From an uncultured Lutibacter sp. (GTDB lineage Bacteria > Bacteroidota > Bacteroidia > Flavobacteriales > Flavobacteriaceae): a stretch of 64,000 bases of DNA. The stretch spans positions 248,001-312,000 of the forward strand of contig NZ_CANLZZ010000005.1 of assembly GCF_947495725.1 (NCBI RefSeq), in the 5' to 3' direction. The notes under the pieces are model-generated. The model was not told the DNA's origin, searched no databases, and worked only from the letters and a program-made list of their open reading frames with translations. Below are positions 16,438 to 34,742 of the stretch, one piece after another; within the stretch, counting starts at the first letter, position 1, and each line of letters starts with the position of its first letter. The position numbers were made by a program, and so were the translations under genes.

Positions 16438-17475
16438 CTAATAATTAGAACTTACTATTTTTACAATTCTATTGTACATTATTTCCGATAAATTCCAGTT
16501 GTAACCATTAAAATCTACCGTATTTGTAAATTGAATAACCACAGTATCTATATCCTTATGATATTTTGCTATAGTTTGGTATCCAGGAATTAAGCCTGTG
16601 TGCTCGTAGGTGTAGATTGATGAATATATTTCTTGTTCTTGTTTGTCTGTAAATACCGTTCCATTATTTAAGGCTCTTATAAATTTGCCTAAATCTTCTG
16701 CGGTTGCCAATATTGAGCCCACATTATTGGTTTTTAAATCCATACTGTAACCTACATAGTAACCGCTCATTACATCGTCTATGTTAACATTGTTTATAGA
16801 GCCAAAAGTGTGGTTTAAGTTTAGTGGAGTTAAAATCTCTTCTTGAATGTATTGGAATGTATTATATCCAAGTATTCGGTTCATTATTTTATCTAATAGC
16901 AAGTAGTTTGTGTTACAATATTCATAATCTTCGCCTGGCTTAAAATTTGCAGGTACATCCAAAACCAATTCAAGATTTTCGTCTGCTGTTTCTTTTGGTG
17001 TTAACCAATAATTTTGGGTATCAGTAAAATTTGGAATGCCACTTCTATGTTGCACCATCATTTTTAAGGTAATTTCGTTGGCAAATTCAATTCTGTTTTT
17101 CAACTCAGGTAAATAATAAGCAAGCGATTTATTTAAAACTAAACGTCCATCTCGCACCAATTTTGCAATAGCTACCGCATAATACAGTTTATTTACACTC
17201 GCTATTTTAAATAATGAATGAGGATCTGCAGCAATTTTGTTTTCCCTATTTTTATAACCCGAAGTATAAAATTGAGGTTGTTTACCTTTTGTATCTACAT
17301 AAACTATAATGCCATCGAATCCATAATTAGTGGCTTTATTTACTTGTTCTTGAACGGTTTTAGGTAATGGAGTTATCCAAGCTTTTACAATTGGCCAAGG
17401 AACAAAGTATAAAGAAATAGCTGTTCCAATAAACAATAAAATTCTAAATAGTTGTTTTGATTTTATTTTGGTCAT
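16438..17475 (-). CDS. Serine hydrolase, beta-lactamase/PBP (class C-like) family
   Basis: SVNKLYYA (SxxK), YEYCNTNY (YxN) motifs; N-terminal TM. Confidence 0.85.
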   Translation of the reverse strand: MTKIKSKQLFRILLFIGTAISLYFVPWPIVKAWITPLPKTVQEQVNKATNYGFDGIIVYVDTKGKQPQFYTSGYKNRENKIAADPHSLFKIASVNKLYYAVAIAKLVRDGRLVLNKSLAYYLPELKNRIEFANEITLKMMVQHRSGIPNFTDTQNYWLTPKETADENLELVLDVPANFKPGEDYEYCNTNYLLLDKIMNRILGYNTFQYIQEEILTPLNLNHTFGSINNVNIDDVMSGYYVGYSMDLKTNNVGSILATAEDLGKFIRALNNGTVFTDKQEQEIYSSIYTYEHTGLIPGYQTIAKYHKDIDTVVIQFTNTVDFNGYNWNLSEIMYNRIVKIVSSNY

Positions 17476-17493
17476 ATTGTTAAATATGGAAGG

Positions 17494-17997
17494 TTATTTT
17501 TTATCAGTTAGCTTTTCAAAAGTCATTTCAGAATCCCAACAATCTCCATAATCAGATTGGCATTTTAATTTAACACTATCTTTTAATAATTCTCCGTTAT
17601 ATTTCAATAATCCTCTAGAAATTGCAATTATTGATTTTTTTTCTAAATTTCTTTCCTGTTTTACAACTTTCATTAGAGAGTTTTCACAAAGTTCTCTTTT
17701 TCCAATTTCAAAACTTATAGTGTTATTTTCTATAGTAAGTTTTTTTATTTCATTTTTATAAAACAAAATTCCGAATCTGCTATTATCTTCAGCTCCGTAA
17801 TAAAGAGCGCTATATTTTCCGTTTAGTGTGTCAATTACCAAATAATGATTTTCGGATTGTTTAAGGGCTTTATATTCATAGATTCCGATTAATTCCGTGT
17901 TTAATTTTTTAGGTTCAGTTTTTATTTCCGATGTTTTTTTGTCGGAATTACAACTAATTAAACTCACTATTAAAATCAGTAATGAAATTTTTTTCAT
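17494..17997 (-). CDS. Lipoprotein, unknown
   Basis: SpII signal LIVSLISC. Confidence 0.7.
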   Translation of the reverse strand: MKKISLLILIVSLISCNSDKKTSEIKTEPKKLNTELIGIYEYKALKQSENHYLVIDTLNGKYSALYYGAEDNSRFGILFYKNEIKKLTIENNTISFEIGKRELCENSLMKVVKQERNLEKKSIIAISRGLLKYNGELLKDSVKLKCQSDYGDCWDSEMTFEKLTDKK

Positions 17998-18000
17998 AAT

Positions 18001-18135
18001 GTATGCTAACGTTGTTTGTATATAATTTGTTACGTTGTTAAAGCACCTAAATTAATAAATAAACACGAAAAAGAAAATACGCAATTCTTTTTATAAGCAA
18101 GGGGAGAACCAAGCAATTGATAATAGCTATTATTG
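18001..18135 (-). repeat. attC-like inter-cassette repeat (subfamily A)
   Basis: atGCTAACgttgttTGTATATAATTTGTTACGttgttaAAGCACCTAAATTAATAAATAAACACG...; shares the AAGCACCTAATTTARYAAATAAA core with copies at 25415, 29236, 30668, 32063. Confidence 0.55.
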
Positions 18136-18684
18136 TGGTTTATTTAAGTTTTTTCTGTTTTTTAATATTAGGAGTGTAATTATATAAATAGCTACAATTG
18201 CAAAGGGAATAGCAATAAATCTGTATTCGGGTAACAGATACCAAAGAATTAAAATTGTAACTGTTCTAGTTAATGTGTGAAAAATTCCAACCCAATGTTT
18301 TATAATCCAAGAAAATGGCACCCACATTAATCCGGTTAAAATTCCTACACTCATGGGAAGTGATGTATAATCAACTAAAAAAAATGGAATTGCAATTGAA
18401 TACACCAGAATTGCCTGACCAGCGGTGAAAAGAAAAAGTGTATCGAATTCGTTTTTTGGTTTGCTTTTATCTAAAAAATTTTCACCAGTGTATTTCGATA
18501 GAAACAAACCTAAATATACAATACTTCCAGTTCCAATAAAAATTGACCAAACGGCTACAAAATCAGAGAAAAATATCCCCATTATTCCAATGATAGTCCA
18601 AATAATTAGTCCAGCTAGTGGTGTAGCTAAAAATTTTTGATTGATATATTCAATTCTTTGTTGTTCTAATGTTCTTTCGTTCAT
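18130..18684 (-). CDS. DUF7010-like membrane protein
   Basis: Several TM segments; QQRIEYINQKFLATPLAGLIIW N-terminus. Confidence 0.6.
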   Translation of the reverse strand: MNERTLEQQRIEYINQKFLATPLAGLIIWTIIGIMGIFFSDFVAVWSIFIGTGSIVYLGLFLSKYTGENFLDKSKPKNEFDTLFLFTAGQAILVYSIAIPFFLVDYTSLPMSVGILTGLMWVPFSWIIKHWVGIFHTLTRTVTILILWYLLPEYRFIAIPFAIVAIYIITLLILKNRKNLNKPQ

Positions 18685-18733
18685 TTTATAAAATGTTTTG
18701 TGTACTATTTTAAGTTTTACTTTCTAAACTTAC

Positions 18734-19171
18734 TTAAATTTTAAATTCAATATCTCCATAGCCAGGCACAAAACTAGAATTATTGCATGTCATAAATTCT
18801 ATTTCACCTATTATTTTAAAAGGGTTCTTATTTTTTACTTTTATTCGCTGTTTAAATGTGGTTTTAGTTTCGAAGTACTTAATTTTTAAGTTAAAAACTG
18901 GGTCGTGAACTGTATGTCCTTTTTCTTCAGTGGTATTACCAATAAGCTCATAATCATTACTTTCTTCAAAAATGAAAATAGTAGGAAGTGGTCTATCTTC
19001 AGGTACTTTTTGAGAATATAAATGGTAATTTTTTTCAATTGAAGCATTAATTATTAAATCATATTCGGTTGCTGTTATTTTCTTAGTTTCTGTTGTCCAT
19101 TTTATAGGTTCAAGGATTTGAGAATAACTAACTGTTGTTATTAATAACAATAATAAAAGTAAATTTTTCAT
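18734..19171 (-). CDS. Stand-alone DsbD N-terminal-like (DsbD-alpha) domain protein, secreted
   Basis: Signal peptide; PIKWTTETKKI...HLYSQKVPEDRPLPTIF...EFMTCNNSSFVPG. Confidence 0.7.
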   Translation of the reverse strand: MKNLLLLLLLITTVSYSQILEPIKWTTETKKITATEYDLIINASIEKNYHLYSQKVPEDRPLPTIFIFEESNDYELIGNTTEEKGHTVHDPVFNLKIKYFETKTTFKQRIKVKNKNPFKIIGEIEFMTCNNSSFVPGYGDIEFKI

Positions 19172-19399
19172 GCGATTTTAAGTTATGTTTTTAAATTCTA
19201 GACCAATTTAAGCAAAAATAATATTTAGTATTGTATTTGGTTTTACGTTGTTGTTTTTTTATTTGTTCTACATCATTTTTTAATAAGTGCTATAAGGCGT
19301 ACTAAAAGGATGCTATTAAATAGTGTTAACTATTAGCATAAATAGTGTATTTTATTAGGGACTTTATTGTTAAAGTTGAGGGAGTTTGTTGTAAATTAA

Positions 19400-19425
19400 G
19401 TACTATATTTAATTAAATATAGTAC
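19400..19425. repeat. 26-bp perfect palindrome
   Basis: GTACTATATTTAATTAAATATAGTAC; followed by direct repeats AGTACAATAATTTT (19421, 19443). Confidence 0.7.
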
Positions 19426-19699
19426 AATAATTTTCTAATTTAAGTACAATAATTTTTAAAAAGTTGTAGATTATTTAGAGAAGTGCTTAAAACCTTTGAA
19501 AAACAAGGTGTTAACAACCAATTTAAAATTACTAAAAAAGTAGTAATAAAAACTGTTAAATACTACGTATTTATTAACAATTTAAAACCAAAATTTAATT
19601 TATAAAAAATAGCTATTATGTTTAATTCTGCAAAATTTTTAAATTTTACATTAAAGTAAGAATTCTATTTTTTATAAGTGTTCTAATTCAGTTCTTTTG

Positions 19700-20296
19700 T
19701 TAAAAATTAAATCCTAAGCCAACTTGGAAAACCCTATTTTTATTTTCGTGTTCTATGAAGCTTTCGGGGTATTCCAATTTTAAAATATCGGTTAAACCAT
19801 ATAAATATCTTGTTTCTACATATAAGCCAAAATCAAATTCATATTCAATACCTATTGTTGTTCCAAAATCAAAATTAGTGTAATCATTTATAGAGGTTCC
19901 CCAACTATCTTTAACTTTAGAAATATAACCTAAATAACCTCCAGCTAAAACAGAAAAATCATTAAACAGCCTTTTTTTCAAAACAATTGGTAGGTTAATT
20001 TGATTGATAATTGTTGTAGTTTCATAAAATGTATATCCTTGTTCAGAATACATTAATCCAATTTTTAATGCGGTACCATTTTTAGCTTTTAAATTAATAG
20101 GATACTCCATTTCACCTCCTATATAAAAAGAGTTTTTATTATGCTGTTTTCTGCCAGATGATGAACCGTTAATAATTACATTATATTCAATATTTGATAA
20201 GTTGTATCCTGCTTTTAGACTTAATTTTAGTGATTGACTTTGGTTGCTTTGTGTAATTAGAAAGAATACTATTCCTAGGTAATATTTTATGTTCAT
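19700..20296 (-). CDS. Outer-membrane beta-barrel (PorT/OmpA-like) protein
   Basis: LKLSLKAGYNLSNIEY...; C-terminal aromatic VGLGFNF. Confidence 0.7.
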   Translation of the reverse strand: MNIKYYLGIVFFLITQSNQSQSLKLSLKAGYNLSNIEYNVIINGSSSGRKQHNKNSFYIGGEMEYPINLKAKNGTALKIGLMYSEQGYTFYETTTIINQINLPIVLKKRLFNDFSVLAGGYLGYISKVKDSWGTSINDYTNFDFGTTIGIEYEFDFGLYVETRYLYGLTDILKLEYPESFIEHENKNRVFQVGLGFNF

Positions 20297-20354
20297 TTTT
20301 AATGTAAAATTTAAAACTATAATTGGTTCTTTTACGCTTTTTTAAACCTAATAA

Positions 20355-20500
20355 GTGCAGTTTTTTACGATGGTTTTGTGCAAGGTTAGTTGCGTTTTTA
20401 AGCTAAATATTTAGTAAATAATTACCGACCAAGAAAATCCGTAAAGACTTTCCAAAGTACGCGATAACAAGCAAATATTTTTATATGTTGTTGGCAATAG
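20355..20500 (-). repeat. attC-like inter-cassette repeat
   Basis: Left end (gene orientation) TTGCCAACAACATATAAAAATA, shared with the 28207 site; internal ATTACCGACCAAGAAAATCC shared with the 26280 site. Confidence 0.55.
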
Positions 20501-20511
20501 CTTTTTATTTA

Positions 20512-21306
20512 CTATTTAATGGAGGTACCAACTAAATTATAAAATTTATGAGCACTATCAATATACTTTTGATTTTCTACATATTTAGCTTTTTTATATT
20601 GTTGAAACATATTTGATGCCTTCTTAAATAATTTTTCGGCTTCTGGTGTTGTTAAAAAATCAACTATATATTTTCCTTTGTACTTTGCATATGCTGAATC
20701 TATTTGCATTGATATAAGGTCAGGTGATTTATATGAAATAACCGGTTTAGGATATGGTGAATAACCACCTTTGCAACATGAGCCTGATTCTAATTGGAGT
20801 CTTTCCAGTGCCTTTCCGTAGGTGGGATCTGTTTGACCATAAACGGTTCTATACACATTAGTTAATTTCATCATGCCAGAACACATTGCACATGGTTCTA
20901 ATGTTGTATATATTGAAAAGCCTTTTAAAGAAAAGGATTGAACACTGTCTAAATAGGATTGTATCACTCGAACTTCTCCATGTTGGGTTCCATTCATTTT
21001 AATATTTACTGAATTTCTTGCCCAGTTAACAACATATTTATCACTATCCACTAACACAGAACCAATGTTATATCCTCTACCTTCAAGAGCGTTAATTTGC
21101 CAATCTTTATGAACTACTGCATATGCCATTAAGGAATAAAAATAGTCAAGTTCTTGTTGTTCCAATGAAACCGAATCAACAGAAACTGAATCAAGAGTGC
21201 ATTCACATTTTTCAATATTTAATTCAGAATTAGGCTGTTTTATTACACATGAAAAAAAGCATATTGACAAAATAAAAATGCTAATTAAGAAATATGTTTT
21301 TTTCAT
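20512..21306 (-). CDS. Predicted exported (SpII) cytidine/nucleoside deaminase-like protein
   Basis: Zn-binding HGE...TLEPCAMCSGMM; lipoprotein signal LSICFFSC. Confidence 0.75.
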   Translation of the reverse strand: MKKTYFLISIFILSICFFSCVIKQPNSELNIEKCECTLDSVSVDSVSLEQQELDYFYSLMAYAVVHKDWQINALEGRGYNIGSVLVDSDKYVVNWARNSVNIKMNGTQHGEVRVIQSYLDSVQSFSLKGFSIYTTLEPCAMCSGMMKLTNVYRTVYGQTDPTYGKALERLQLESGSCCKGGYSPYPKPVISYKSPDLISMQIDSAYAKYKGKYIVDFLTTPEAEKLFKKASNMFQQYKKAKYVENQKYIDSAHKFYNLVGTSIK

Positions 21307-21356
21307 TAGAAATTTATTTATTAAGTTTTATAGATGATAATTAATTACCCAAATTA

Positions 21357-21491
21357 TTGCGAACGGGATTTTATAAGATTTGTGCGACTGGAAAATCGGA
21401 GATTTTTCGGACGTAGTAAATCGTTTGTTGAATGTTTGTCAGTTCGTTATTTATTTCAAATGTAAGCATAAATTATATGAGGTGTTAGCAA
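21357..21491 (-). repeat. attC-like inter-cassette repeat (subfamily B)
   Basis: TTGCGAAC (21357-21364)/GTTAGCAA (21484-21491), 6-nt and 3-nt spacers, inner imperfect arm TTATAAGATTT/AAATTATATGA. Confidence 0.7.
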
Positions 21492-21500
21492 AAGTTTTTA

Positions 21501-22067
21501 TCAGAATATATAATATCCTATGCTAAATTGAATCAAGGTATTTGTTCCTTTTTTCAATTCTCCATCATAGTTCGGTTTGTCGATAGCTTTAGTCAGACCT
21601 TGATAAAAATTCAATTCAAGAAATAAATCATTAATCTTTTGACCAAATCCAATATTTACTCCAAAATCAATCGTTTCTCCTTTGTTTAAAAAGTATGGGA
21701 GTTTTTCAGAAAGTAAAAATCCAATTTGAGGTCCCGCTAAAATATATGTCTTGTCATAAAATTTAAAATTTAATGGGAGATTTAAATATTCTGATTTATA
21801 ATCAATATGTTCAATACTACTACTTTCACCGTCTCGATTCCCTTGTTGTGAATAAACTAATTTTGGTCTAAATTTAATTTTTTCGGTTATATCAAATTCA
21901 TAAAATCCTCCTAAATGAAATCCCATTTTATCAGTAATATCAATTTGATTTAAAACTCCCTCTGAAATAGATGAATTATTTAATCCAATCAAAACTCCCA
22001 TTTTTTTTTGAGAGAAGGTTATTAGTGGTATTAAAATCAATAAAGTAATTGCAATCTTTTTTTTCAT
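21501..22067 (-). CDS. Outer-membrane beta-barrel (PorT-like) protein
   Basis: Signal peptide; MGVLIGLNNSSISEG...; IQFSIGYYIF C-terminus. Confidence 0.7.
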   Translation of the reverse strand: MKKKIAITLLILIPLITFSQKKMGVLIGLNNSSISEGVLNQIDITDKMGFHLGGFYEFDITEKIKFRPKLVYSQQGNRDGESSSIEHIDYKSEYLNLPLNFKFYDKTYILAGPQIGFLLSEKLPYFLNKGETIDFGVNIGFGQKINDLFLELNFYQGLTKAIDKPNYDGELKKGTNTLIQFSIGYYIF

Positions 22068-22088
22068 TTTTTGTCTTTTTTTATTTTT

Positions 22089-22218
22089 GCTAACGTGTTA
22101 GTGCATGAAAAGTTGCGGTTTTAAAACTACAATTTTCAGACTGTTAAATTTAAGTTTATTTTGTTTTAGAAACATTCTATATTTTACACTTTAGCAATTT
22201 TTTATGCACATTGTTAGC
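22089..22218 (-). repeat. attC-like inter-cassette repeat (subfamily C)
   Basis: GCTAAC (22089-22094)/GTTAGC (22213-22218); inner 16-bp stem GTGCATGAAAAGTTGC (22101-22116)/GCAATTTTTTATGCAC (22194-22209) with two G.T wobbles; 6/3 nt spacers. Confidence 0.75.
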
Positions 22219-23068
22219 TGCTGGGCTTTTGTTCTTTTCTAGCTACCATTCTCAGAACTGCATGTATTGTTGCTAAATAGTGATAAAATATCCAGCTATA
22301 CCAAATTGCTTTGTCATAATCCTTTTTCTGCTTTTCGTTGTGGTGTCTAATGCTAAAGTTATTTGCAATATTAAATATATCACCTTCATCTTTTGAATCA
22401 AGAACATCTTTCATTTCAGGTCTTAAGTACTCTAAAACATCCGCTAATTCCCTCAATGCTTCTTTTCTGTCTTCAAGAGTTGATTTATGTCTTCTAAATT
22501 TGGTTACAGCACGCTGGATTTTACTATTAATGTTTTCAATATCAGATGACGGAATATCAGCTTCAAGAAGAGGTGCAATATATTTGTCAGGTAGTTCAAG
22601 AATTTCACCGTCATTAGAAATTTCATATCCTTTCAGATAGTCCTTAATGACATAATTCATTTTTTCTCTAAAATATTGCTGACCATCAGTATTATTAAAA
22701 GTATCATAATGATGTCCACAATTATTGAACTGATGATAATATCCAGAAAGCGGTTTAGAGCAATGGTCATGTAGAAATTCTATCATATCAAATAAGTCAT
22801 CTTCTGAGTATGATTCTAGTTTTTCCTGAATCGGCCAAAGATTTTCTTTTTTTAATGATAAAAATATCATGGAGTCAATATCTCCACCTAATTCACCATT
22901 TACATCTCCTTGGTCGACACAATAATATCCAAAATATTTTTGAAAATATCCATCCTCGTCTAACTTGTTATAAGTAACGAGAAATAGTTTCTTCAATAGT
23001 TTTAAAGTAAGTTCAGGTGTCTCTTTTAGTTTACCTGTTCTTGAGGAATAATAATCTCTATTTTTCAT
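22214..23068 (-). CDS. Helical protein of unknown function, cassette-borne
   Basis: 284 aa, no signal, ends in hydrophobic helix WIFYHYLATIHAVLRMV. Confidence 0.65.
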   Translation of the reverse strand: MKNRDYYSSRTGKLKETPELTLKLLKKLFLVTYNKLDEDGYFQKYFGYYCVDQGDVNGELGGDIDSMIFLSLKKENLWPIQEKLESYSEDDLFDMIEFLHDHCSKPLSGYYHQFNNCGHHYDTFNNTDGQQYFREKMNYVIKDYLKGYEISNDGEILELPDKYIAPLLEADIPSSDIENINSKIQRAVTKFRRHKSTLEDRKEALRELADVLEYLRPEMKDVLDSKDEGDIFNIANNFSIRHHNEKQKKDYDKAIWYSWIFYHYLATIHAVLRMVARKEQKPSS

Positions 23069-23106
23069 TTAATTATCTCTGTTTTCGGTCTCGTTCTCGC
23101 CTTGCA

Positions 23107-23385
23107 GCTAACTCGTTATATATTCACATTATATGCGTTTATCCCATTTATTTATCCGTAAAACGTGTTATGTTTTACTTTTTTAATGGCGCTAAAAATT
23201 AAATTTAGTTGCAATTTTTTGTAGTATAAAATTAAAATAATTTATGTAACCAGGAAATATAAAACCCATTTTAATTAAAACCTTATAAAATTAAAGCCAA
23301 ATCTAAAAATTTGGCGGACTTTGCAAAAAAGCTAAACCTTAGTTTTAACAATTACTTGCACTATTTTTTATAAATATTGTTAGGC
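23107..23385 (-). repeat. attC-like inter-cassette repeat (subfamily D)
   Basis: GCTAAC (23107)/GTTAGGC (23379-23385; GCCTAAC on gene strand matches RYYYAAC); contains the ~220-bp block also at 28208 and 35270. Confidence 0.6.
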
Positions 23386-23618
23386 ACAGTACTTCTCGCA
23401 CTAATTGGCAATAATTTTCTATATGTTAAACAACGCCAAATCCATTCTAATGGTCCAAATCTGAAATATTTTAACCAAATCTTGCTAAATAGAATTTGAA
23501 AGGCGAAAACCATAATCGCTGTTAAAAATGTTTTTGACGGACTTAAAGTTTCGTAAAGTTTAAATCGGATTGAAGAAAATAAAAACAAACCAATATTTTG
23601 TGAAGTAGGATTTTCCAA
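23361..23618 (-). pseudogene. C-terminal fragment of a DUF418 membrane protein
   Basis: IWLKYFRFGPLEWIWRCLTYRKLLPI matches IWLKHYRFGPLEWAWRSLTYKKRIKI at the end of the full-length DUF418 protein 29396..30616. Confidence 0.75.
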
Positions 23619-23843
23619 ATACCAAAATGGAAGTAAATATTTGTATCATTCTTTTTTAAATGCACAAACTCCAACTACTATTAATTCATTAAGCGATATT
23701 ACTTTGAACATTTTACCGTTAAATCCGTGAGCATCATATTTTTTGTTAAAAGTTAATGGATTTACTCTAGTTTTTTTCCACAACAAAACAGAACGTTATA
23801 CAAAAACAAGTAAAAAAAACAATGAAGTAAGCGAATAGCAACA

Positions 23844-24659
23844 TTATTTTCCAAGTTTTAAAATTCTAATGGCACCTTGAATTACCAATACAAAAACGAT
23901 TGTTCCAATTATTAAATCAGGTTTGCTCGAACTTAACCAATTTACCATAAGTCCTGCGATTATGACACCTAAATTAATTATCACATCATTTGAGGTGAAA
24001 ATCATACTAGCTTTCATATGTGCCTCGTCTTTGCTCTTTGACTTTTGTAAAATGTAAAGACAAATTCCGTTTGCGATAAGTGCGAAAATAGAAACGATTA
24101 TCATTGTCGAAAAATCAGGAAGTTTCTCGTCTCCAAAAAATCTCCTTAAAACTTCCACAAATCCGATAATCGCAAGTGTTATTTGAAAATATCCAGCAAG
24201 TTTCGCAATCCGCTTTTTCTTTATTATCGTTCCGCCAACCGCAAATAAGCTAATTCCGTAAACAAAACTGTCGGCAAGCATATCCAAACTATCGGCAACA
24301 AGTCCCATAGATTTTGAGATAATTCCAGTTGTCATTTCGATTATAAAAAAAGCAAAATTGATTGCAAGTACAGACCAAAGTAGCTTTTTCTGATTTGCAT
24401 TTTCTTTAAATTCCGTTTGGTCGGTTTGTTCGGTCGAAATTTTCTTTCCGCCTAAATTCAGTTCGATAATATACTTTTCGATTTGGTCAATTTCTCCGCT
24501 GTGAAAAACGGTCAATTTTCTGTTTGGAATATCAAAGTCCAAATTCGCAATACTCGAAATTCCGTCCAATTTCATTCGGACTAAATTTTCCTCCGATGGA
24601 CAGTCCATTTTGGTAATTTCAAATATTGTTTTGTTCATTGAAATTTGTAGGTTATACAC
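23844..24659 (-). CDS. Cation diffusion facilitator-family transporter with N-terminal HMA-like region
   Basis: ADSLDMLADSFVYGISLFAVG, five to six TM; MDCPSEENLVRMKL. Confidence 0.85.
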   Translation of the reverse strand: MYNLQISMNKTIFEITKMDCPSEENLVRMKLDGISSIANLDFDIPNRKLTVFHSGEIDQIEKYIIELNLGGKKISTEQTDQTEFKENANQKKLLWSVLAINFAFFIIEMTTGIISKSMGLVADSLDMLADSFVYGISLFAVGGTIIKKKRIAKLAGYFQITLAIIGFVEVLRRFFGDEKLPDFSTMIIVSIFALIANGICLYILQKSKSKDEAHMKASMIFTSNDVIINLGVIIAGLMVNWLSSSKPDLIIGTIVFVLVIQGAIRILKLGK

Positions 24660-24684
24660 ATTGCTGTGCTTATTTTTTATTCAG

Positions 24685-25407
24685 CTATTGTTCTAGTTCT
24701 TTATCAATTTGAGAAATAATATCCTTAAGGCTTTCCTGGTTTATTACAAATGTTCTCCAATAATAAAAATTCTTTGATCGAAAATAAATATTAAGATCAG
24801 CTATTAAATATTCGTCTGTTAAATCACTAATGTTTTTATATGGCTCATAAGTTATTAAATGAGCATATTTATAATTTAAATCAGATGATTCCTGCCTCAA
24901 AATTTCAAATAGATTTTCATTGGTAGGTGCATTAAAAGTATAAAACCTTTGAATATTTGAATATAAGGTGTCATTTATTATAAGGTCAGAATTGCCATCA
25001 GCAATCATAGCATCGTAGGCACTTTTGCTTGACCGAAAGGGCATATCATATCCAAATAACTCCGAATAAGATATTTTGCTAATAGTATCAAAGCCTTCAA
25101 AGGAAGTTATTTCTTTTCGAGGATTAAATGAAGGTAAAACCTTTTTAAAGTACATAATCTCTCTTCCCCAATATGGTTTTAATTCTTCGATTAACTCTAA
25201 ATCTTTAACCATATCCGAACGAATTGCTTTCAAAATAGTGGTAGCTTTCATTTTGCCCTTTTGAACTTCATTCCAATTATTAATCTGCAATGCAATCAAA
25301 ATTCCTATAACAACAAGAATAATTTCTCCAATTGCGTAAATCAGATACTTACTGAATTTATTTTCAGTTAATAATCTTTGTCTAATTTTTCTAAAGAATT
25401 TTATCAT
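24685..25407 (-). CDS. DUF6090-family protein (paralogue 1)
   Basis: MIKFFRKIRQRLLTENKFSKYLIYAIGEIILVVIGILIALQINNWNE. Confidence 0.85.
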   Translation of the reverse strand: MIKFFRKIRQRLLTENKFSKYLIYAIGEIILVVIGILIALQINNWNEVQKGKMKATTILKAIRSDMVKDLELIEELKPYWGREIMYFKKVLPSFNPRKEITSFEGFDTISKISYSELFGYDMPFRSSKSAYDAMIADGNSDLIINDTLYSNIQRFYTFNAPTNENLFEILRQESSDLNYKYAHLITYEPYKNISDLTDEYLIADLNIYFRSKNFYYWRTFVINQESLKDIISQIDKELEQ

Positions 25408-25414
25408 TGGTTAA

Positions 25415-25515
25415 TGGCGTGTTTAAGCACCTAATTTAGCAAATAAAAAGCGAATAGAAAATGCGGGAGGATTTTCAGAAATAGGCGAGAACAAGCAATT
25501 ATTTATAGTCATTGT
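25415..25515 (-). repeat. attC-like inter-cassette repeat (subfamily A, one end truncated)
   Basis: GTGTTTAAGCACCTAATTTAGCAAATAAAAAGCGAATAGAAAATGCG...ATTGTTGTGC. Confidence 0.6.
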
Positions 25516-25525
25516 TGTGCTTTCG

Positions 25526-26257
25526 TTATTTTTTATTTATCTCAATCTTAATTAATTCTTTCAATTCATTGACATTATTTAGCATTTGCTTTAATTCAAT
25601 TATTTGTCTTTTTTCTGTGTAATTTTTAAGATATAAAGCGTTCTCAAGGGTCAATATTATTTCTGGGTAGTTTTCGGTATAATTTAAATGGCTATTTTCT
25701 TTCAAGTGATAAGTGTTTCTATAAAATCCTAAATTCCCTGCTTTTTGTAAATCACTTAAATAAACACTGTAATTTCCATTGGCTTGACTGACAATTCCTT
25801 CTTGTTTTCTCACAAGATTTATCAACTTTTTTCTGAAGTGAGCAGGTATCAATTTTATGTCTCCTGTTGATTCTAATGTTCCAATTGTATTAGAGTTAAA
25901 TGATGGATACCAAAAAGCAAGTTTGACTTGAGTTAGTGCGTTCATCATTTCGATAAGTTCTAAGTTTGATTCTTTAGTAAGTTGTAAATATTGTTCATAG
26001 GAAGCTATACTTTCACTAATTCGAGAAATTTTGTCTTTTATGTTGTCTGTCTCATCAGCCAAGTCTTCTTCTAATTGGTAATAGTAATTTTGAATAACAT
26101 TACTTTGTTTGCGGTTTTCATTCCAGTTATTAATTTGAAGCGCAATCAAAATTCCAATAACGACAAGAATAATTTCACCAACTGCGTATTTAAAATACTT
26201 TCCAGTTTTATTTTCCATTAGCAGGTTTTGACGGATTTTTCTAAAGAATTTTATCAT
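25526..26257 (-). CDS. DUF6090-family protein (paralogue 2)
   Basis: MIKFFRKIRQNLLMENKTGKYFKYAVGEIILVVIGILIALQINNWNENRK. Confidence 0.85.
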   Translation of the reverse strand: MIKFFRKIRQNLLMENKTGKYFKYAVGEIILVVIGILIALQINNWNENRKQSNVIQNYYYQLEEDLADETDNIKDKISRISESIASYEQYLQLTKESNLELIEMMNALTQVKLAFWYPSFNSNTIGTLESTGDIKLIPAHFRKKLINLVRKQEGIVSQANGNYSVYLSDLQKAGNLGFYRNTYHLKENSHLNYTENYPEIILTLENALYLKNYTEKRQIIELKQMLNNVNELKELIKIEINKK

Positions 26258-26279
26258 TGGTTATTGGTTGGTCATAATG

Positions 26280-26416
26280 AAGCACAACGGTTTTTGGTAT
26301 GTTTTGTAGCGTGTTTTAAACAACTAATTTTGTGAATAATTACCGACCAAGAAGATCCAAGAGGACTTTCAGAAGTAGGCGAGAACAAGCAATTATTTAT
26401 AGCCATTGTTGTGCTT
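26280..26416 (-). repeat. attC-like inter-cassette repeat
   Basis: Perfect 9-bp terminal inverted repeat AAGCACAAC (26280-26288)/GTTGTGCTT (26408-26416). Confidence 0.72.
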
Positions 26417-26419
26417 TCG

Positions 26420-27148
26420 TTATTTATTAATATTTTTATCTATGAGTTCAATAATATACTCTAAAGTTGCCATTAGATCCTTTTCTTCCTCTAATCCATT
26501 TTTTCGTATATCATGAAAAAGATGGTTTGTTGCCCATCTGAATTCGGGATGTTCAAATATTGACCTTAAATTATATCCCGTAATTTTTCCATCTTCAATA
26601 ATCATGGCATTGGTCCAATATGATTTTATCGAACTCTCTCTTTGAGTTTCTATTTTAAGTGTGCTTTCTAAAGCGTCTGTCGTTAAATCCTTTAAAGATG
26701 CCAGTAAATATTTCAGTTCCTTATTTGAAAGTTGATTAATTTGTCCTGAAGAGATAATGGAATTAAGTATCCCGTTTTGCGGATCATACGTTAAGTTATA
26801 ATCCAGTTTTCTGATTGATGCAGAAAACAGACTATCCGACATTTTATCAAAAGCTGCTCTGTCTCTAAAAAGCGCTCTCATTTCTATTGCCGTTTGAAAG
26901 GATATTTCGTTTCCCTCTATTGTGGATTCCAAAGCTTTCAGATTTATTATCATTTCTTGTTTAAGGTCTTTGAGAATAGACTGCTCTGCTTTTTTTAGCT
27001 TTCGGTCTTCATTCCAACCATTAATAGATACCGCAATTAGGATTCCAATTATCACCAAAAGAATCTCACCAACAGCATACTTCAAATACTTTCCAGTTTT
27101 GTTTTTTTCCATAAGGTCATAGCGTATTTTTCTAAAGAATTTTATCAT
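26420..27148 (-). CDS. DUF6090-family protein (paralogue 3)
   Basis: MIKFFRKIRYDLMEKNKTGKYLKYAVGEILLVIIGILIAVSINGWNEDRK. Confidence 0.85.
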   Translation of the reverse strand: MIKFFRKIRYDLMEKNKTGKYLKYAVGEILLVIIGILIAVSINGWNEDRKLKKAEQSILKDLKQEMIINLKALESTIEGNEISFQTAIEMRALFRDRAAFDKMSDSLFSASIRKLDYNLTYDPQNGILNSIISSGQINQLSNKELKYLLASLKDLTTDALESTLKIETQRESSIKSYWTNAMIIEDGKITGYNLRSIFEHPEFRWATNHLFHDIRKNGLEEEKDLMATLEYIIELIDKNINK

Positions 27149-27212
27149 TGGTTGGTTGTTTCTCTAAAGTTAGAATAATTATTTAATTCCGTTCGAGTGA
27201 GAATAATGAAGC

Positions 27213-27339
27213 ACAACGGGTTTGTATAACCAAAGTTGCGATTTGGATGTTACAATTTTTCTTTATTAAAATTAATGAATTTATATTTTCTAAACATTCT
27301 GTTTTACGGAATTAAGCAATTTTGGTTATACGGTGTTGT
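27213..27339 (-). repeat. attC-like inter-cassette repeat
   Basis: ACAAC (27213-27217)/GTTGT (27335-27339); perfect 11-bp inner arm GTATAACCAAA (27224-27234)/TTTGGTTATAC (27321-27331); 6/3 nt spacers. Confidence 0.78.
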
Positions 27340-27378
27340 AATTTGTTACTTTTCGGTTAATGCTATTCATAAATCAGC

Positions 27379-27834
27379 CTAATTCAATTCATATTCAATG
27401 TAGTCATTAAAAACTACAATTTGCTCTACAGGAATAATCTCAATCTTATTTATAATAGTATCTTTTAGAATTAAATTAAAATCAAATTCTTTATCTCTAT
27501 CCAATAAGTCAAAATCATATTTATCTCTGTTAATAATATCATTACTAAACCTTTTCAATAACTCTTTTTTAGAAATAATTTTGAATTTATTAATTTTACT
27601 CAAATCCATAATTCTCGAGCTTTTCTCTGTTTTTTTAGTGAAATTTATAAATATGAAACTATCACAAATTAAATATGAATCTTTTTCCCAATTTTGTCTT
27701 ACTATATTGGAATCACATTCAATCTCATTTTTATCGTATAAAACATAAATCTTTTCTGATGGTCTCGGAATAAAAATCAAAATCATTAATATAATCAAAA
27801 CGGAAGATGCTATTAAGTATTTGTATTTTTTCAT
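27379..27834 (-). CDS. Membrane-anchored hypothetical protein
   Basis: N-terminal TM; cassette-borne. Confidence 0.6.
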   Translation of the reverse strand: MKKYKYLIASSVLIILMILIFIPRPSEKIYVLYDKNEIECDSNIVRQNWEKDSYLICDSFIFINFTKKTEKSSRIMDLSKINKFKIISKKELLKRFSNDIINRDKYDFDLLDRDKEFDFNLILKDTIINKIEIIPVEQIVVFNDYIEYELN

Positions 27835-27991
27835 TTCAATTTATGTTTTTCAGATATAAACTTAATCTGTTTATTGTTCAATCAATTTAATGATTGAAAA
27901 AGTCAAAAATTTTTCTCAGCTTGTTTCAATTTTTCTTTTAAGCTTTTCCATTACGTTGTTCAATTCCGGAATTTTGCTAAAATCGAACCGC

Positions 27992-28183
27992 TCAATTTGT
28001 CATTTCTCTGTTCTCTGAAACCGAAATTTTATTTTTAAAATTCTTTAGATCATTTATTGTCATTCCAACACCTAAACCAATTAAAATTCCGGAAATAAAT
28101 CCAGTTAAATCGTTTTCCAATGAGAAAAAAGAGATAATTCCAATTATAATAATCGTAATTCCAAAAATTCTAGTTTTGTTCAT
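27992..28183 (-). CDS. Small two-TM protein (63 aa)
   Basis: MNKTRIFGITIIIIGIISFF...; paralogue at 34401..34574. Confidence 0.6.
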   Translation of the reverse strand: MNKTRIFGITIIIIGIISFFSLENDLTGFISGILIGLGVGMTINDLKNFKNKISVSENREMTN

Positions 28184-28208
28184 AGTTTCTGTTTTTCTGT
28201 AATAAATT

Positions 28209-28516
28209 ACAACTCGTTATATATTCATATTATATGCGTTTATCCCATTTATTTATCCATAAAACGTGTTATGTTTTACTTTTTTAATGGCGCTAATAAT
28301 TAAATTTAGTTGCAATTTTTTGTAGTATAAAATTAAAATAATTTATGTAACCAGGAAATATAAACCCCATTTTAATTAAAACCTTATAAAATTAAAGGCA
28401 AATCTAAAAATTTGGCGGACTTTGCAAATAAGTAGTTAGCTTTTGGTTTAGTGCTTAATAGTTAAGTTTTTAGCAAGTGTGCTATAACCAAACAATTATT
28501 TTTATATGTTGTTGGC
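28209..28516 (-). repeat. attC-like inter-cassette repeat (subfamily D block plus second half)
   Basis: ACAACtcgtta...GTTGGC; ~220-bp block near-identical to 23110-23335. Confidence 0.6.
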
Positions 28517-28554
28517 GGTAGAAATTAATTTTGTAGGGTGGTTGTAGGTGTTTT

Positions 28555-29205
28555 TTAGTTGTTGCTTTCTAAATATTTATTTATCTCTACTAAACAATCC
28601 TTGTATTTTTGCAACCTGTTTTGACTGGTTCTATAATAAGCTCCAAGGATATTCATAAATTCTTTAGAGGTGTATATTTCATCCTTTTGAATTGAACCTT
28701 TTACTAGGTCAAAATTATTTTTTAAATAGGGATAATAATCACTAGTATAAAGATTCATAGAAATTTCGTTGAAGGATTCTACCCATTTATAATATTCGTA
28801 CAAATTAACAATATTTTGCTTTTCTTCATAGTTTCTAATAAATCTAATATCTCCGGATTCTATCAATATTTTATAGGCGTTTTTTCTTATATAGACTCCT
28901 CCTAAATTCAATAATTCTAATGAAAGATGATTGGCCTTTATAAAATTGTTTTTGTTTTCTAATAGCTTAAAAAGCGTGTCCATTTTCATTAAATTCAATT
29001 CGTCATATTTTATTGCATTTTCAAATGATGTTTTATTTAGGTTAGTTTCTTTAATAATTTCTTTTGAGTGAATATCAATGGTTAAACTTTGTTCGTTTTC
29101 GAATGAACATTTGTTTAATTGAAACGCAATAAGAATTCCAACAATAACTACAACAAATTCCAATGAATGATTTAACCAATCGATTTTATGTCCTTTTATT
29201 TTCAA
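28555..29205 (-). CDS. DUF6090-like protein (paralogue 4, divergent)
   Basis: WLNHSLEFVVVIVGILIAFQLNKC resembles the DUF6090 TM segment. Confidence 0.65.
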   Translation of the reverse strand: MKIKGHKIDWLNHSLEFVVVIVGILIAFQLNKCSFENEQSLTIDIHSKEIIKETNLNKTSFENAIKYDELNLMKMDTLFKLLENKNNFIKANHLSLELLNLGGVYIRKNAYKILIESGDIRFIRNYEEKQNIVNLYEYYKWVESFNEISMNLYTSDYYPYLKNNFDLVKGSIQKDEIYTSKEFMNILGAYYRTSQNRLQKYKDCLVEINKYLESNN

Positions 29206-29235
29206 AATCTTCCTTTTTTTTGAATTGCTTAAAGC

Positions 29236-29360
29236 GCGTTTGTATTTGGTTTTGTGGCGTGTTTAAGCACCTAATTTAACAAATAAAAACAGAATAGAAA
29301 ATCCGCTAGGTTTTTCGCAAGTAGTCGAGGACCGGGTAATTAAGTTTGTATAGTGTTGCC
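29236..29360 (-). repeat. attC-like inter-cassette repeat (subfamily A)
   Basis: GCGTGTTTAAGCACCTAATTTAACAAATAAAAACAGAATAGAAAATCCGC...; left end GGCAACACTATACAAAC. Confidence 0.6.
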
Positions 29361-29395
29361 TTTGGTTAAATTATAAATTTAATTTTTAATAGATT

Positions 29396-30616
29396 TTAAT
29401 ATCGAATTTTTATCCGTTTTTTATAGGTTAAACTTCTCCAAGCCCATTCAAGTGGTCCAAATCGATAGTGTTTTAACCAAATATTACTTAGAATAATTTG
29501 AATAGCGACAATAATTATGGCAATAATAAACGTTGGAATTAATCCTATTTTTCCAAACAGACTAAATCCGAAATTATAAAAAATGACAAGCATTAAAACT
29601 GTTTGTAGAATATAATTACTCAAGGCTGTTCTTCCTACAGGAATCAAATATTTCAATACTTTTTTACCAATTACAGTTTGGGCAATTTTTATTATTGCCA
29701 TGATATAAGAAATACTAATAAGCAGTTGACCAACCAATGATAAGAATTTATAACGAATATTTTGAAAAGTAGGCAGTTCATATGCATTGCCTCCTAAAAG
29801 TTTTGCAGTAATAGTAATTAGTATCCCACCAATTAAAATAGTTAATATTAATAGTGTAGATTTTGGTGTTTTTTTAAAGAATTCTATCGAGGCTAGATAG
29901 TAACCCAAAAGAAAAATACCAAGTAATTTAAAATAGCCACCAGATGGTATATAGCTTAATTGCTTCCATATAAAATTATGAATATTTAACTTGAATATTT
30001 CAATAACAGAACCTTCTCTAAAAATATTAATAACATCTACATTCGACATATCCGGATAGGAAATGCGAGCAATTGGTACTTGATTTGTGTTTACAGGGGT
30101 ATTAGCCTGCAAGGCTTCAGTAAATGGTAAAAGAGCAAAATCCAATACATAGGGTATTAACAGAAAAAAGAGTGACCATCGAAGTAGTATTTTTGGTTTT
30201 ACATTTCGAAATAAAATTAGAATAAAACCATAAATAGAATATGTTAGTAATATATCGCCATACCAAAATAAAGTATGTAGAATACCTATAATTAGTAAAA
30301 TGAATAATCTTCTCCGAAACGTTCTTAAAAAATCAGCAGTTCTATCTCTGTTTTTGTTGAATTGTATATAAAAACCAACAGCAAATAAAATTGAAAATAT
30401 AGTGTAAAATTTACCTGAGACTATAATTCCTAAAAAATTATATAATTTATTATCTAACTCAAAGTTAGATATTTGCTTCAGTTCTTCAAAGGGCATAAAC
30501 AGGTAACCGCTAAAAAAACTCATATTCATAAAAATAATACCGAGTAGTGCAAATCCACGTAGAATATCTATAATTTCGATTCTTTTATTTGGTTCAATAG
30601 GCTTACTAATTTTCAT
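29396..30616 (-). CDS. DUF418-family membrane protein (YeiB-like)
   Basis: RIEIIDILRGFALLGIIFMNM; FGPLEWAWRSLTY C-terminal motif; ~10 TM. Confidence 0.9.
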   Translation of the reverse strand: MKISKPIEPNKRIEIIDILRGFALLGIIFMNMSFFSGYLFMPFEELKQISNFELDNKLYNFLGIIVSGKFYTIFSILFAVGFYIQFNKNRDRTADFLRTFRRRLFILLIIGILHTLFWYGDILLTYSIYGFILILFRNVKPKILLRWSLFFLLIPYVLDFALLPFTEALQANTPVNTNQVPIARISYPDMSNVDVINIFREGSVIEIFKLNIHNFIWKQLSYIPSGGYFKLLGIFLLGYYLASIEFFKKTPKSTLLILTILIGGILITITAKLLGGNAYELPTFQNIRYKFLSLVGQLLISISYIMAIIKIAQTVIGKKVLKYLIPVGRTALSNYILQTVLMLVIFYNFGFSLFGKIGLIPTFIIAIIIVAIQIILSNIWLKHYRFGPLEWAWRSLTYKKRIKIRY

Positions 30617-30667
30617 AAGATTATTTTTTTTATAAAATTATATTTTTCATTTGGAGACATAATGAAA

Positions 30668-30815
30668 GGTAATGGTTTGTGTATGATTTTGTTACGTGTT
30701 TAAGCGCCTAATTTAATAAATAAAAACAAAATAGAAATTCCGCGAAACACGTGCAAAGCAAATTGGCGTAGCAATTTTGTAAATAAGCGAGAAAAGCAAT
30801 TACTTAAAGCCATTG
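30668..30815 (-). repeat. attC-like inter-cassette repeat (subfamily A variant)
   Basis: ACGTGTTTAAGCGCCTAATTTAATAAATAAAAAC...AAATTGGCGTAGCAATTTTGTAAATAAGCGAGA...GCCATTGTTAGCAGC. Confidence 0.6.
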
Positions 30816-30835
30816 TTAGCAGCTGGCCTTTAATT

Positions 30836-32050
30836 TTAATGATGATGTTTCTCTTTATGCTGTCTCAATAAATCTTTTCCGTAATCATTTCCGTTTGGTG
30901 TCCTAACAACTGTATGAATATGGTTTTTTGAAGGTTTGCCGTCATCTGCGTTTGGAACTCCAACTACTTTTTGATGATCAAATTCAATTAAAATAACTGG
31001 ACTATGAATTCGATAGTAAAAAACAGCATTTTCAGAAGTGTTTCCAACCCAAGAAAACCAAGTATTATCAATATGAGCTTTTATTTCCTCCATTTTAACT
31101 TTGTCGTGTCCTTCACGAATATTGCTTATGTACAAATAAACTAATTCTAGTAGTTTTTGCCTTTGTTCCTTTGAAAAATTTGAGACCTGAATTCCTTCAT
31201 AATTGAGGCTTAAATTATCTTTATTAGCTTCAGCTACATTGTTATTGTCAGTTTTTACGTTTGAAATTGCAGCCTCTTTCTGTTGCTCCTGCGTTAGGGA
31301 TTGCATTAAAGCTAATCCAAAATTCTGTTCATCTTGAAATAGGGTATTTCCTTTATATTTTCCAGAAGTCGTAATTATTGGTTCTCCACCCATAAATACT
31401 GGTGACATTACAACTTGGTCTCCTAAAATAAAGTAGTTAATAACTAAATGATGTCCATCCAATTGCCAGCCCCAAGGTTTAGTACTTGAAGGTTTTCCCA
31501 TAATAGTAAAGAAATACAATTCTTCATCATAATCCAATGAACCATTGTTAAGCTCTTTAAGAGTTTGGTCAGTCTTCATTATGTCCTTGCTCAGTTGAAG
31601 TCCTTTAGCGCTTAATGATTCTTGAATTAATTTAAAAGCAATTTTCTTTTGAATTTCGGTCAATTCTTTTAAGCTAACACCTTGTCTGTCATATATACCA
31701 TTATCAACGTTACACCATTTCCTCCATTCCTCATCATTTATGTCAAATGTTGTGCGTTGTAGTTGTGAAGGTGATAAGCCATTTAAAAAATTTTCAGCAG
31801 CTTTTTGAATTGGTAAAGTTGAAACTCCTGTAGCACGAATTTGAAATAAATTTGTCGAATCGCTGTCTTTTGTAAAAATTCCAACATAAGGCTCTTTCAA
31901 AGCTTCTGTCTCCATTTTGGCAAATTGTTCTTTTACAGTATTAACCTCCTCAACATTATCCGTTGTTTTGTCATTTTCCTTTTGAGCCGCTTTCTTTTTG
32001 CAACTAAAAGCAGTTAAAAGTAAAAATAGTATGATTAAGTTTTTCATCAT
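30836..32050 (-). CDS. DUF3500-family lipoprotein
   Basis: SpII signal (LTAFSC); WGWQLDGHHLVINYFILGDQVVMSPVFMGGEP; HIHTVVRTPNGNDYG. Confidence 0.85.
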   Translation of the reverse strand: MMKNLIILFLLLTAFSCKKKAAQKENDKTTDNVEEVNTVKEQFAKMETEALKEPYVGIFTKDSDSTNLFQIRATGVSTLPIQKAAENFLNGLSPSQLQRTTFDINDEEWRKWCNVDNGIYDRQGVSLKELTEIQKKIAFKLIQESLSAKGLQLSKDIMKTDQTLKELNNGSLDYDEELYFFTIMGKPSSTKPWGWQLDGHHLVINYFILGDQVVMSPVFMGGEPIITTSGKYKGNTLFQDEQNFGLALMQSLTQEQQKEAAISNVKTDNNNVAEANKDNLSLNYEGIQVSNFSKEQRQKLLELVYLYISNIREGHDKVKMEEIKAHIDNTWFSWVGNTSENAVFYYRIHSPVILIEFDHQKVVGVPNADDGKPSKNHIHTVVRTPNGNDYGKDLLRQHKEKHHH

Positions 32051-32062
32051 TTCTGTTTTTTT

Positions 32063-32231
32063 AGCTAATAGCCAATGGGTTTTGGTATGTTTTGTTGAGT
32101 TGTTTAAGTACCTAATTTAGCAAATAAAAAGCGAATAGAAAATGCGGGAGACACGAGCAAAGAAAATTGGCGTAGTAATTTTTGTAAATAGGCGAGAACC
32201 AGCCATTAATTATACATGATTTAAGTTAGCT
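32063..32231 (-). repeat. attC-like inter-cassette repeat (subfamily A variant)
   Basis: AGCTAAT (32063)/GTTAGCT (32225-32231); shares AAATTGGCGTAGYAATTTTTGTAAATA insert with the 30668 site. Confidence 0.6.
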
Positions 32232-32407
32232 GTAGTTTTTTTTCAAATTTCCTGTACTAAGTCATATATTGGATAAATTAAAATCGAAAACTATTCCTAA
32301 GAGTATTAATCAGTCTAGTTAAATTCAGTTAATAAAAGTCCACATTTTAACATTAACGTTTTTACCAATAATGAATGGTTCAAATTAACAATTTTTAATA
32401 AGTTAGT

Positions 32408-32725
32408 TTATCTTGAAAATGCCTGAATTTCATCTATCAAACCTAATCGGCAAGCTCGATCTACAATGTCATAATCTAATCTTCTGTTAAAAAATAAGCA
32501 ACAATAATTCCGTTGAATAAGTGTTCCGTTAAACAAATAATATTTTAAACGTAAAACTCCAATTTCATTTTTCACTAAGCTTAGAGCATAGTCAACATAA
32601 CGAGTCATAGCTAAACTAGATTTATCAGTTAAATGTCCTATTATAAAATCTACATCTTCTGCATTTCCACTTTCTGCTCTTTCAATCAATTCCCCTAATT
32701 TTCCGTGAAATTTATTTTTAATCAT
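32408..32725 (-). CDS. Small cytosolic hypothetical protein
   Basis: 105 aa, helical; cassette-borne. Confidence 0.55.
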   Translation of the reverse strand: MIKNKFHGKLGELIERAESGNAEDVDFIIGHLTDKSSLAMTRYVDYALSLVKNEIGVLRLKYYLFNGTLIQRNYCCLFFNRRLDYDIVDRACRLGLIDEIQAFSR

Positions 32726-32756
32726 TGAATTTTGAGTTTATTATGTAGTCAATTAC

Positions 32757-32852
32757 AGCTAACGTGTTTTTATAAGATTAGTGCGACCTCATAAATATAC
32801 GCAGATTTTTCGATTTAGCCCGTTAGTCCGCATTAGGTTTAGGTTTTGTTGT
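32757..32852 (-). repeat. attC-like inter-cassette repeat (subfamily B, degenerate far end)
   Basis: AGCTAACGTGTTTTTATAAGATTAGTGCGACC matches the right end of the 21357 site. Confidence 0.5.
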
Positions 32853-32860
32853 ACGCAGTA

Positions 32861-33535
32861 TTATTTCGTACTAAATTTAATAACTACTGTTTTCCATTCC
32901 TGTCCAAATATGATGTTTTTATTAACATCCCAATTTTTATTTTGAAGAGCACTTAAGTAAACGTCTTTGATATTGACACTAATATTATCAACTTCTTTTC
33001 CTTCTCTAACTTCGATAATCTTACCTAATTTTTGTCCAGTAAGACTAGCAATCATTTGTGCTTTTTTATTCGCTTTTTCTAAAATCTTTGAAAACAACCT
33101 TTTTTCGTCCAATTCTGTATCTCCATATTCAATTTCCCCTACTGAAGCTGTGATGTAGTCTAACGTTTTCAATTCCGTCGTCAGTTTTTCCAACTGTTTA
33201 GAGGTTTTCAATTCAACGGCAAATCCTAATTTCCAAAATCCCGCATAATTGTGAATTTGAAATTCAGAGTTATTTAAAGGTCGGATTTTATAATTTTTGT
33301 TTTCAAGAAATAATTCAAGCTCCTTATACTTTTCGTGCATTTTTATCTTAGCAGAATTCTTGCCAATCGCTCCATTTTCATCATAGCGATTAAATTTGGA
33401 TTCACTTATTTGAACATTATATTCAAAATTGATTGGTTTCATTCTTATAGAATCTTTAATTTCTATTTCAATAAGTCCACTCTGACCAAATCCAAAATTG
33501 GTAATAAGTATAAATAGGTATATTATTTTCTTCAC
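32861..33535 (-). CDS. SIMPL-domain (DUF541) secreted protein
   Basis: Signal peptide; ILEKANKKAQMIASLTGQKLGKIIEVREG. Confidence 0.75.
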   Translation of the reverse strand: MKKIIYLFILITNFGFGQSGLIEIEIKDSIRMKPINFEYNVQISESKFNRYDENGAIGKNSAKIKMHEKYKELELFLENKNYKIRPLNNSEFQIHNYAGFWKLGFAVELKTSKQLEKLTTELKTLDYITASVGEIEYGDTELDEKRLFSKILEKANKKAQMIASLTGQKLGKIIEVREGKEVDNISVNIKDVYLSALQNKNWDVNKNIIFGQEWKTVVIKFSTK

Positions 33536-33559
33536 TTTTGATGGTTTTTTATATTACAC

Positions 33560-34336: not shown

Positions 34337-34400
34337 TCTTTTATTTTCTGTTTTTTAGGTTTCATAAAAGCTTACACAAATCAGGATTTACTCAGTTTAG

Positions 34401-34574: not shown

Positions 34575-34614
34575 TTCTTTCCTTTTTTTTTATTTTCATA
34601 AATTATAATAATCA

Positions 34615-34735: not shown

Positions 34736-34742
34736 CTGTATT

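Follow-up and report, generated by a model that had tools for sequence, protein, structure and literature searches.

Canonical integron integrases (IntI) carry I2, an insertion in the catalytic domain reported to be required for cassette capture and to occur in no other protein; it helps to hold the extrahelical bases of canonical attC sites, its deletion abolishes IntI1 activity, and whether I2 created hairpin recombination has been called unresolvable for want of an ancestor (PMC7790495). IntegronFinder requires an I2 profile (method in PMC9668308), the Bacteroidetes example of IntegronFinder 2.0 is a complete integron in Salinibacter (PMC9024848), and Bacteroidota are not among the groups covered by the taxon-specific attC models of PMC8352920. 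Smyshlyaev et al. 2021 treat the catalytic-domain insertion as essential for integron function and describe an 'Integron-like' subgroup in which it is not fully conserved (PMC8138268). Here we analyse a window of 64 kb (the whole stretch presented, part of contig C5 of a 4.24-Mb genome close to Lutibacter litoralis), which very likely holds a partly decayed cassette array of a chromosomal integron system of marine Flavobacteriaceae; an intact array with its integrase lies on contig C8 of the same genome. This I2-less system with wobble-bearing hairpins is a new integron variant. What distinguishes it is not the asymmetry of its spacers; its marks are an integrase without I2, hairpins lacking extrahelical bases, and G.T wobbles that are fixed at positions 7 and 12 of the stem. 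We found no description of this system in the open-access literature, preprints and most subscription journals lying outside the search.

Hairpin sites and cassettes of the window

A sequence-only reading of the window had described three attC-like hairpins, in which the outer arms are separated from the inner stem by 6 nt on one side and 3 nt on the other. All three exist as written, with minor corrections to the stems. The site at 21358-21490 reads GCGAAC-GGGATT-TTATAAGATTTGTGC...GCATAAATTATATGA-GGT-GTTAGC, and its stem contains one A.A mismatch and three wobbles. The site at 22088-22219 reads GCTAAC-GTGTTA-GTGCATGAAAAGTTGC...GCAATTTTTTATGCAC-ATT-GTTAGC, and the two G.T wobbles proposed for it are borne out at positions 7 and 12 of a 16-bp stem; the site at 27211-27341 reads GCACAAC-GGGTTT-GTATAACCAAAGTTGC...GCAATTTTGGTTATAC-GGT-GTTGTAA, with a single wobble. 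As read from the sequences, a cassette comprises one minus-strand gene plus an attC site whose + (bottom) strand is predicted to fold as R'(..AAC)-6 nt-16-bp stem-variable loop-stem-3 nt-R''(GTT..).

When the whole window was scanned for AAC...GTT hairpins, allowing spacers of 0 to 9 nt on each side, the hairpins at 27 kb and 22 kb ranked first and second, both at 6/3. Across 34 loci 6/3 was preferred by 72 hairpins, with 7 more in the same register, while a Markov-shuffled control gave 7 hits at any spacing and none at 6/3; the spacing is thus conserved, as had been supposed, and not random. Wherever R'' is GTTGTT, the right spacer is ambiguous by 3. A search of Rfam gave no match. A covariance model (R1), trained on 28 sites from other genomes with the own genome left out, recovers nine window sites, all on the + strand, all between 18.0 and 30.8 kb and with E values of 1e-14 to 3e-3. 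Together with attI copies and sites recognised by repeats and matching ends, the array comprises:

16438..35249, - strand: cassette genes (beta-lactamase fold, deaminase, AbiJ-like, cation efflux, three DUF6090, SIMPL, others)
18004..18138, + strand: attC-type site, right end decayed (R1 E 3.5e-6)
20365..20496, + strand: attC-type site of the deaminase cassette (R1 E 6.6e-12)
21358..21490, + strand: attC site, first of the three described earlier (R1 E 2.6e-9)
22088..22219, + strand: attC site, second of the three; 6/3, 16-bp stem, G.T at 7 and 12 (R1 E 1e-14)
23107..23331, - strand: attI copy (...ATATAACGA^GTTAGC) with about 200 nt of flank (direct repeat D1, attI motif)
25389..25520, + strand: attC-type site; its left end and the next gene overlap (R1 E 3.9e-10)
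26282..26414, + strand: attC-type site, R'/R'' GCACAAC/GTTGTGC (R1 E 2e-12)
27211..27341, + strand: attC site, third of the three; 6/3, 16-bp stem (R1 E 1.5e-14)
28207..28432, - strand: attI copy (...ATATAACGA^GTTGTAA) with flank (direct repeat D1, attI motif)
29229..29361, + strand: attC-type site, decayed (R1 E 1.1e-7)
30667..30821, + strand: attC-type site, decayed (R1 E 0.0026)
32070..32232, + strand: attC-type remnant, right end GTTAGCT matching the R' box at 32757 (repeats, end matching)
32756..32854, + strand: attC left half, truncated, R' CAGCTAAC-GTGTTT (repeat D18, end matching)
33558..33689, + strand: attC-type site with non-pairing arms of different stem types (repeats, end matching)
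34634..34734, + strand: attC right half, GCATAAATTTTATGA-GGT-GTTGGC (repeat D19, end matching)
35270..35461, - strand: attI copy at the array head, beside phosphofructokinase (attI motif)

Five positions that had been taken for right ends with a 6-nt spacer (23113, 28214, 32764, 33565 and 35277) turn out to be left, R'-side ends on the + strand, and those at 23113, 28214 and 35277 belong to attI copies and not to attC sites. The three attI copies lie inside a 222-nt repeat (D1). Each of them (with flank, 23107-23331, 28207-28432 and 35270-35496) is accompanied by about 200 nt from the downstream flank of phosphofructokinase. Two stand within the array, where they adjoin right halves of a long attC type; the copy at 35270 and the attI of the intact C8 integron (L016:8549) have about 43 nt in common. 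Between 24685 and 27148, DUF6090 paralogues with alike 166-nt gene starts occupy three consecutive cassettes, each followed by its own attC-type site.

A circular integron cassette has matching ends, in that its own R'' resembles its own R' and not the box of the hairpin partner. Here the end boxes (7-mers) match in 172 of 216 adjacent site pairs, against 4.2% for random pairing and 18 of 289 for hairpin partners. In the window, seven cassettes have ends that agree exactly (right/left ends at 21.5/22.1, 22.2/23.1, 25.5/26.3, 26.4/27.2, 27.3/28.2, 32.2/32.8 and 34.7/35.3 kb) and others have decayed; at the 20365 site R'' (GTTGGCA) and the own cassette start (TGCGAAC) match at 6 of 7 bases. As in integrons, cassettes mostly consist of one gene plus attC and keep one orientation, the longest open reading frames (ORFs) running along the array in 162 of 172, with a median cassette length of 857 bp. 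Two cassettes of the L057 array are 97.4% identical end to end, and their flanks diverge from exactly AA/C outward at both ends. Comparing the own genome with L. litoralis, the stretch of HU gene, integrase and attI is alignable (81%), and beyond attI only attC repeats are common to both. Matching ends, exact breakpoints and divergence past attI are footprints of site-specific exchange, and by sequence the crossover lies at AA^C / G^TT. The genomes compared are drafts, in which arrays often stop at contig ends.

The intact array on contig C8 and its integrase

The searched part of the window codes for no recombinase. The window holds, like a cluster of attC sites lacking an integrase (CALIN), an attC cluster with no integrase nearby, the integrase being located on another contig. 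Contig C8 carries a gene for a 393-aa tyrosine recombinase (L016:8716-9897, minus), and 3' of it, on the same strand, lie seven genes with hairpins of the window types between them. In a gapped scan all seven hairpins fit R'AAC-6-stem...stem-3-GTT R'', 5/3 being the better drawing for the site at L016:889-1074. Anti-phage-like genes are present in three of the seven cassettes (L016:1093-5751), namely an SpbK-like TIR gene (5e-43), an OLD/AriA-like ATPase gene (7e-30) and a weak PLD/PbeA match; an HU-family gene (L016:10311-10715) stands divergent to the integrase, in a stretch common to L. litoralis.

In L. oceani the integrase adjoins a phosphofructokinase-HTH (helix-turn-helix)-exonuclease block, the very block that borders the window array, and in L. 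flavus (G032) a truncated integrase lies near its copy of the block. The best reading of the window array is therefore that of a relic whose own integrase has been lost. An empty site for this array was looked for beside phosphofructokinase in relatives, which are homologous only to about 35462 and give no alignment for the left flank. Second, broken integrase copies, with stop codons or truncation, occur in genomes that have an intact one (G030:C5:135608-136765 and G032:C8:730727-731353). Elsewhere in the window, a run of similar large ORFs occupies the + strand at 41205-54477, with thrombospondin type 3 repeats in both ORFs scanned.

Judged by its sequence, the C8 integrase is a tyrosine recombinase that is complete, starts with a 95-aa N-terminal domain and lacks the I2 insertion. 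The catalytic residues R231, K256, H320, R323, H346 and Y355 are invariant in the alignment of its family, all aligned family members have a gap where IntI1 has its I2 stretch, the structure prediction shows no helix at that place, and IntI4 matches the integrase in two pieces, one on each side of it. Against TIGR02249, the canonical IntI profile, it scores 199 bits at a cut-off of 265; a search of the own genome for canonical IntI found none, this recombinase, below cut-off and without I2, being the sole near match. Both by sequence and by fold the closest solved structure is XerA (5hxy), and in a tree the two Xer-type recombinases of the genome fall with E. coli XerC/D (99/99) and outside the integrase family. 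Residues 1-95 are predicted to form a beta-beta-alpha-beta-beta-alpha-beta arrangement, in which W44-S45 and W51 are conserved; this domain gave only a weak DUF5710 match in Pfam (0.0045 in 3 of 20 members), no sequence match in the PDB and nothing significant by fold (best E 0.23). A HARP-like domain, which had been suspected, was confirmed by neither Pfam, PDB sequence nor fold searches.

Directly downstream of the integrase gene lies attI (ATATAACNN^GTT). Its motif, ATATAAC-NN-GTTR, is found 27-213 nt past the integrase stop in 36 of 46 named loci, at a background of 0.005 per 700 nt, and a TAnnTTTG-like (-7-like) box precedes attI in 19 of 35 (background 2.6%). About 50 nt upstream of attI, TTATCC[CG]G is conserved in most loci, in some together with a GGGATAA inverted repeat; it is possibly an accessory integrase site.

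Orthologues of the integrase occur in most Lutibacter genomes and in Polaribacter, Tenacibaculum, Winogradskyella, Psychroserpens, Bizionia, Seonamhaeicola and others, and relatives in 140 of 295 genomes of the class Bacteroidia. At 54 named loci, 194 sites (133 at 6/3) lie downstream of the integrase and few upstream. The covariance model matches 36 of 38 genomes of the genus, with 35 matches in the own genome and zero in G033, which is without the integrase. More distant relatives have chained arrays too, with spacers of 5/1, 5/3 and 6/3. Several 6/3-type hairpins are also carried by the Polaribacter phage P12002L (L183, ~31.1-39.7 kb), on the same strand as the phage genes and opposite to the cassette-array orientation.

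Stem wobbles, the folded strand and rival explanations

As a reference we measured in the same way 42 canonical sites from 12 IntI loci of the same phylum. Bulge-free stems make up 98 of 111 sites here and 0 of 42 canonical ones, and an unpaired base on the L''-R'' arm is seen in 1 of 111 here versus 42 of 42 canonical sites, where it mostly falls at positions 6-7 or 11-15. At stem position 7, and likewise at position 12, 170 of 196 sites have a G.T wobble whose G belongs to the R' arm; the wobbles thus lie at about the same place as the canonical extrahelical bases. Because many sites are related copies, raw site counts overstate independence, and the clustered counts over 55 distinct stems (82% and 80%) are safer; in the covariation set position 12 is G.U in 28 of 28 sites and position 7 in 25 of 28. 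The sites were chosen for pairing, which inflates pairing percentages and leaves the wobble pattern and the end rule unaffected. Covariation amounts to 98 double-change cells, compared with 27 after shuffling and no more than 29 after sliding, with compensatory changes at 13 of 16 stem pairs, and according to fold energies the bottom-strand stem is the more stable one in 195 of 196 sites. The covarying stem argues for folded-strand recognition, and the earlier view of attC as a folded bottom strand is probably right. Like classical attC, the sites are covarying imperfect palindromes that have R and L boxes and a central spacer left unpaired; unlike classical attC, they lack the extrahelical bases on the L''-R'' arm. 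The G right after R' AAC, known in classical attC (PMC2727003), is present in 193 of 196 sites here and 41 of 42 canonical ones. Since both losses are seen here, I2 and the extrahelical bases appear to have gone together.

The spacer asymmetry had led the sequence-only reading to contrast the hairpins with the 5-6 nt symmetry of classical sites and to propose a lineage-specific attC type. Two attC sites of the R46 class 1 integron are indeed near-symmetric, but canonical IntI-linked sites of the same phylum are asymmetric as well (6/2 in 21 of 42), and we rejected the 6/3 asymmetry as a novelty in itself. A lineage-specific type is retained on other grounds: its spacing is fixed across Flavobacteriaceae, its stem covaries and the integron end rule is obeyed. 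The features that set it apart (stems without extrahelical bases, the fixed wobbles at 7 and 12, and an I2-less integrase elsewhere in the genome) had escaped the sequence-only reading, as had the attI nature of three of its listed ends.

On balance, we lean towards a Bacteroidia integron lineage that recombines folded single-stranded attC by means of an I2-less integrase, two G.T wobbles, with or without help from the N-terminal domain, replacing the extrahelical bases. In the integron reading that we hold to be very likely, the integrase would act on the folded bottom strand and cut in R' across the 6-nt spacer, in a layout as in attI, while the opposite 3-nt spacer would keep the bulge. The wobbles at 7 and 12, which are A.C mismatches on the other strand, would take over from the extrahelical bases as landmarks of strand and register. 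Circular cassettes would be inserted at attI and excised between attC sites, and the window array would be serviceable only in trans, from contig C8. Several points weigh against this model: recombination is read from footprints, and single-strand use from covariation and strand energies; the tree gives no settled placement of the integrase family relative to IntI and Xer; no -33 TTG, as part of a full cassette promoter Pc, was found alongside the -7-like box before attI; and sites occur in genomes without a detected integrase (11 in G006, 2 in G005), as remnants would.

The main rival, which we consider unlikely, is a double-stranded Xer-like reaction at a core of R'-6 nt-L', for which the hairpin is not the substrate. 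XerA as the closest solved relative, the absence of I2 and the AAC + 6 nt + TAT that attI and the attC left half have in common would all suit such a reaction. It does not need complementarity of L' and L''. Against it stand the compensatory changes at 13 of 16 stem pairs and the polarity of the wobbles, with one strand folding better in 195 of 196 sites. Very unlikely is an ordinary CALIN, with classical attC sites moved by a canonical IntI in trans or since lost. The window does lack an integrase, canonical IntI is present in 84 of 297 genomes of the GTDB phylum, and IntI1 recombined five of six attC sites from three phages, including P12002L_attC2 of the Polaribacter phage (PMC9892861), whose 6/3 hairpins cannot be assigned to the tested site. 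However, the own genome has no canonical IntI, its C8 recombinase being below the cut-off and I2-less; among genomes of the same class one has IntI above threshold, and among the family genomes listed none has; arrays lie directly 3' of the I2-less integrase in many genera; and the extrahelical bases of all 42 canonical sites are absent from the present ones. We give next to no credence to the view that the hairpins are transcription terminators or scattered intergenic repeats that play no part in recombination. The hairpins are intergenic and foldable, and the window has other repeats, but the end boxes match across genes and not across the hairpin, the duplication breakpoints are exact, and the hairpins keep one strand orientation and a place 3' of one integrase family. 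Moreover, the wobbles would be A.C mismatches in the transcript, so an RNA role would not keep them.

If I2-less, wobble-read hairpin recombination holds true, hairpin recombination would be either older than I2 or invented twice, and a natural I2-less integron family, with sites free of the I2-contacted bases, would make the need for I2 directly testable. Searches with an I2 profile miss the present integrase by construction, so counts of the cassette genes of Flavobacteriaceae, anti-phage-like ones among them, may be too low.

Comparison with known systems

With the Xer recombinases (XerA/XerC/XerD) the integrase shares its closest solved structure (XerA, 5hxy) and the absence of I2, whereas its family is separate from the Xer-type recombinases of the genome, has an N-terminal extension and adjoins cassette arrays. 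The likeness to the 'Integron-like' subgroup of Smyshlyaev et al. 2021 is one of description: the insertion is incompletely conserved there and absent here. The window array resembles a CALIN in having sites and cassettes and no integrase; unlike a CALIN, it retains attI copies, and its site type is that of the I2-less system. Chromosomal integrons have in common with the present system an integrase next to attI, same-strand arrays, RYYYAAC...GTTRRRY ends, a G^TT crossover, a G directly after R' AAC and the longer spacer on the R' side. In contrast to theirs, the present integrase is without I2, has an extra 95-aa N-terminal domain and points toward the array instead of away from it, and the attC stem has fixed G.T wobbles in place of extrahelical bases.

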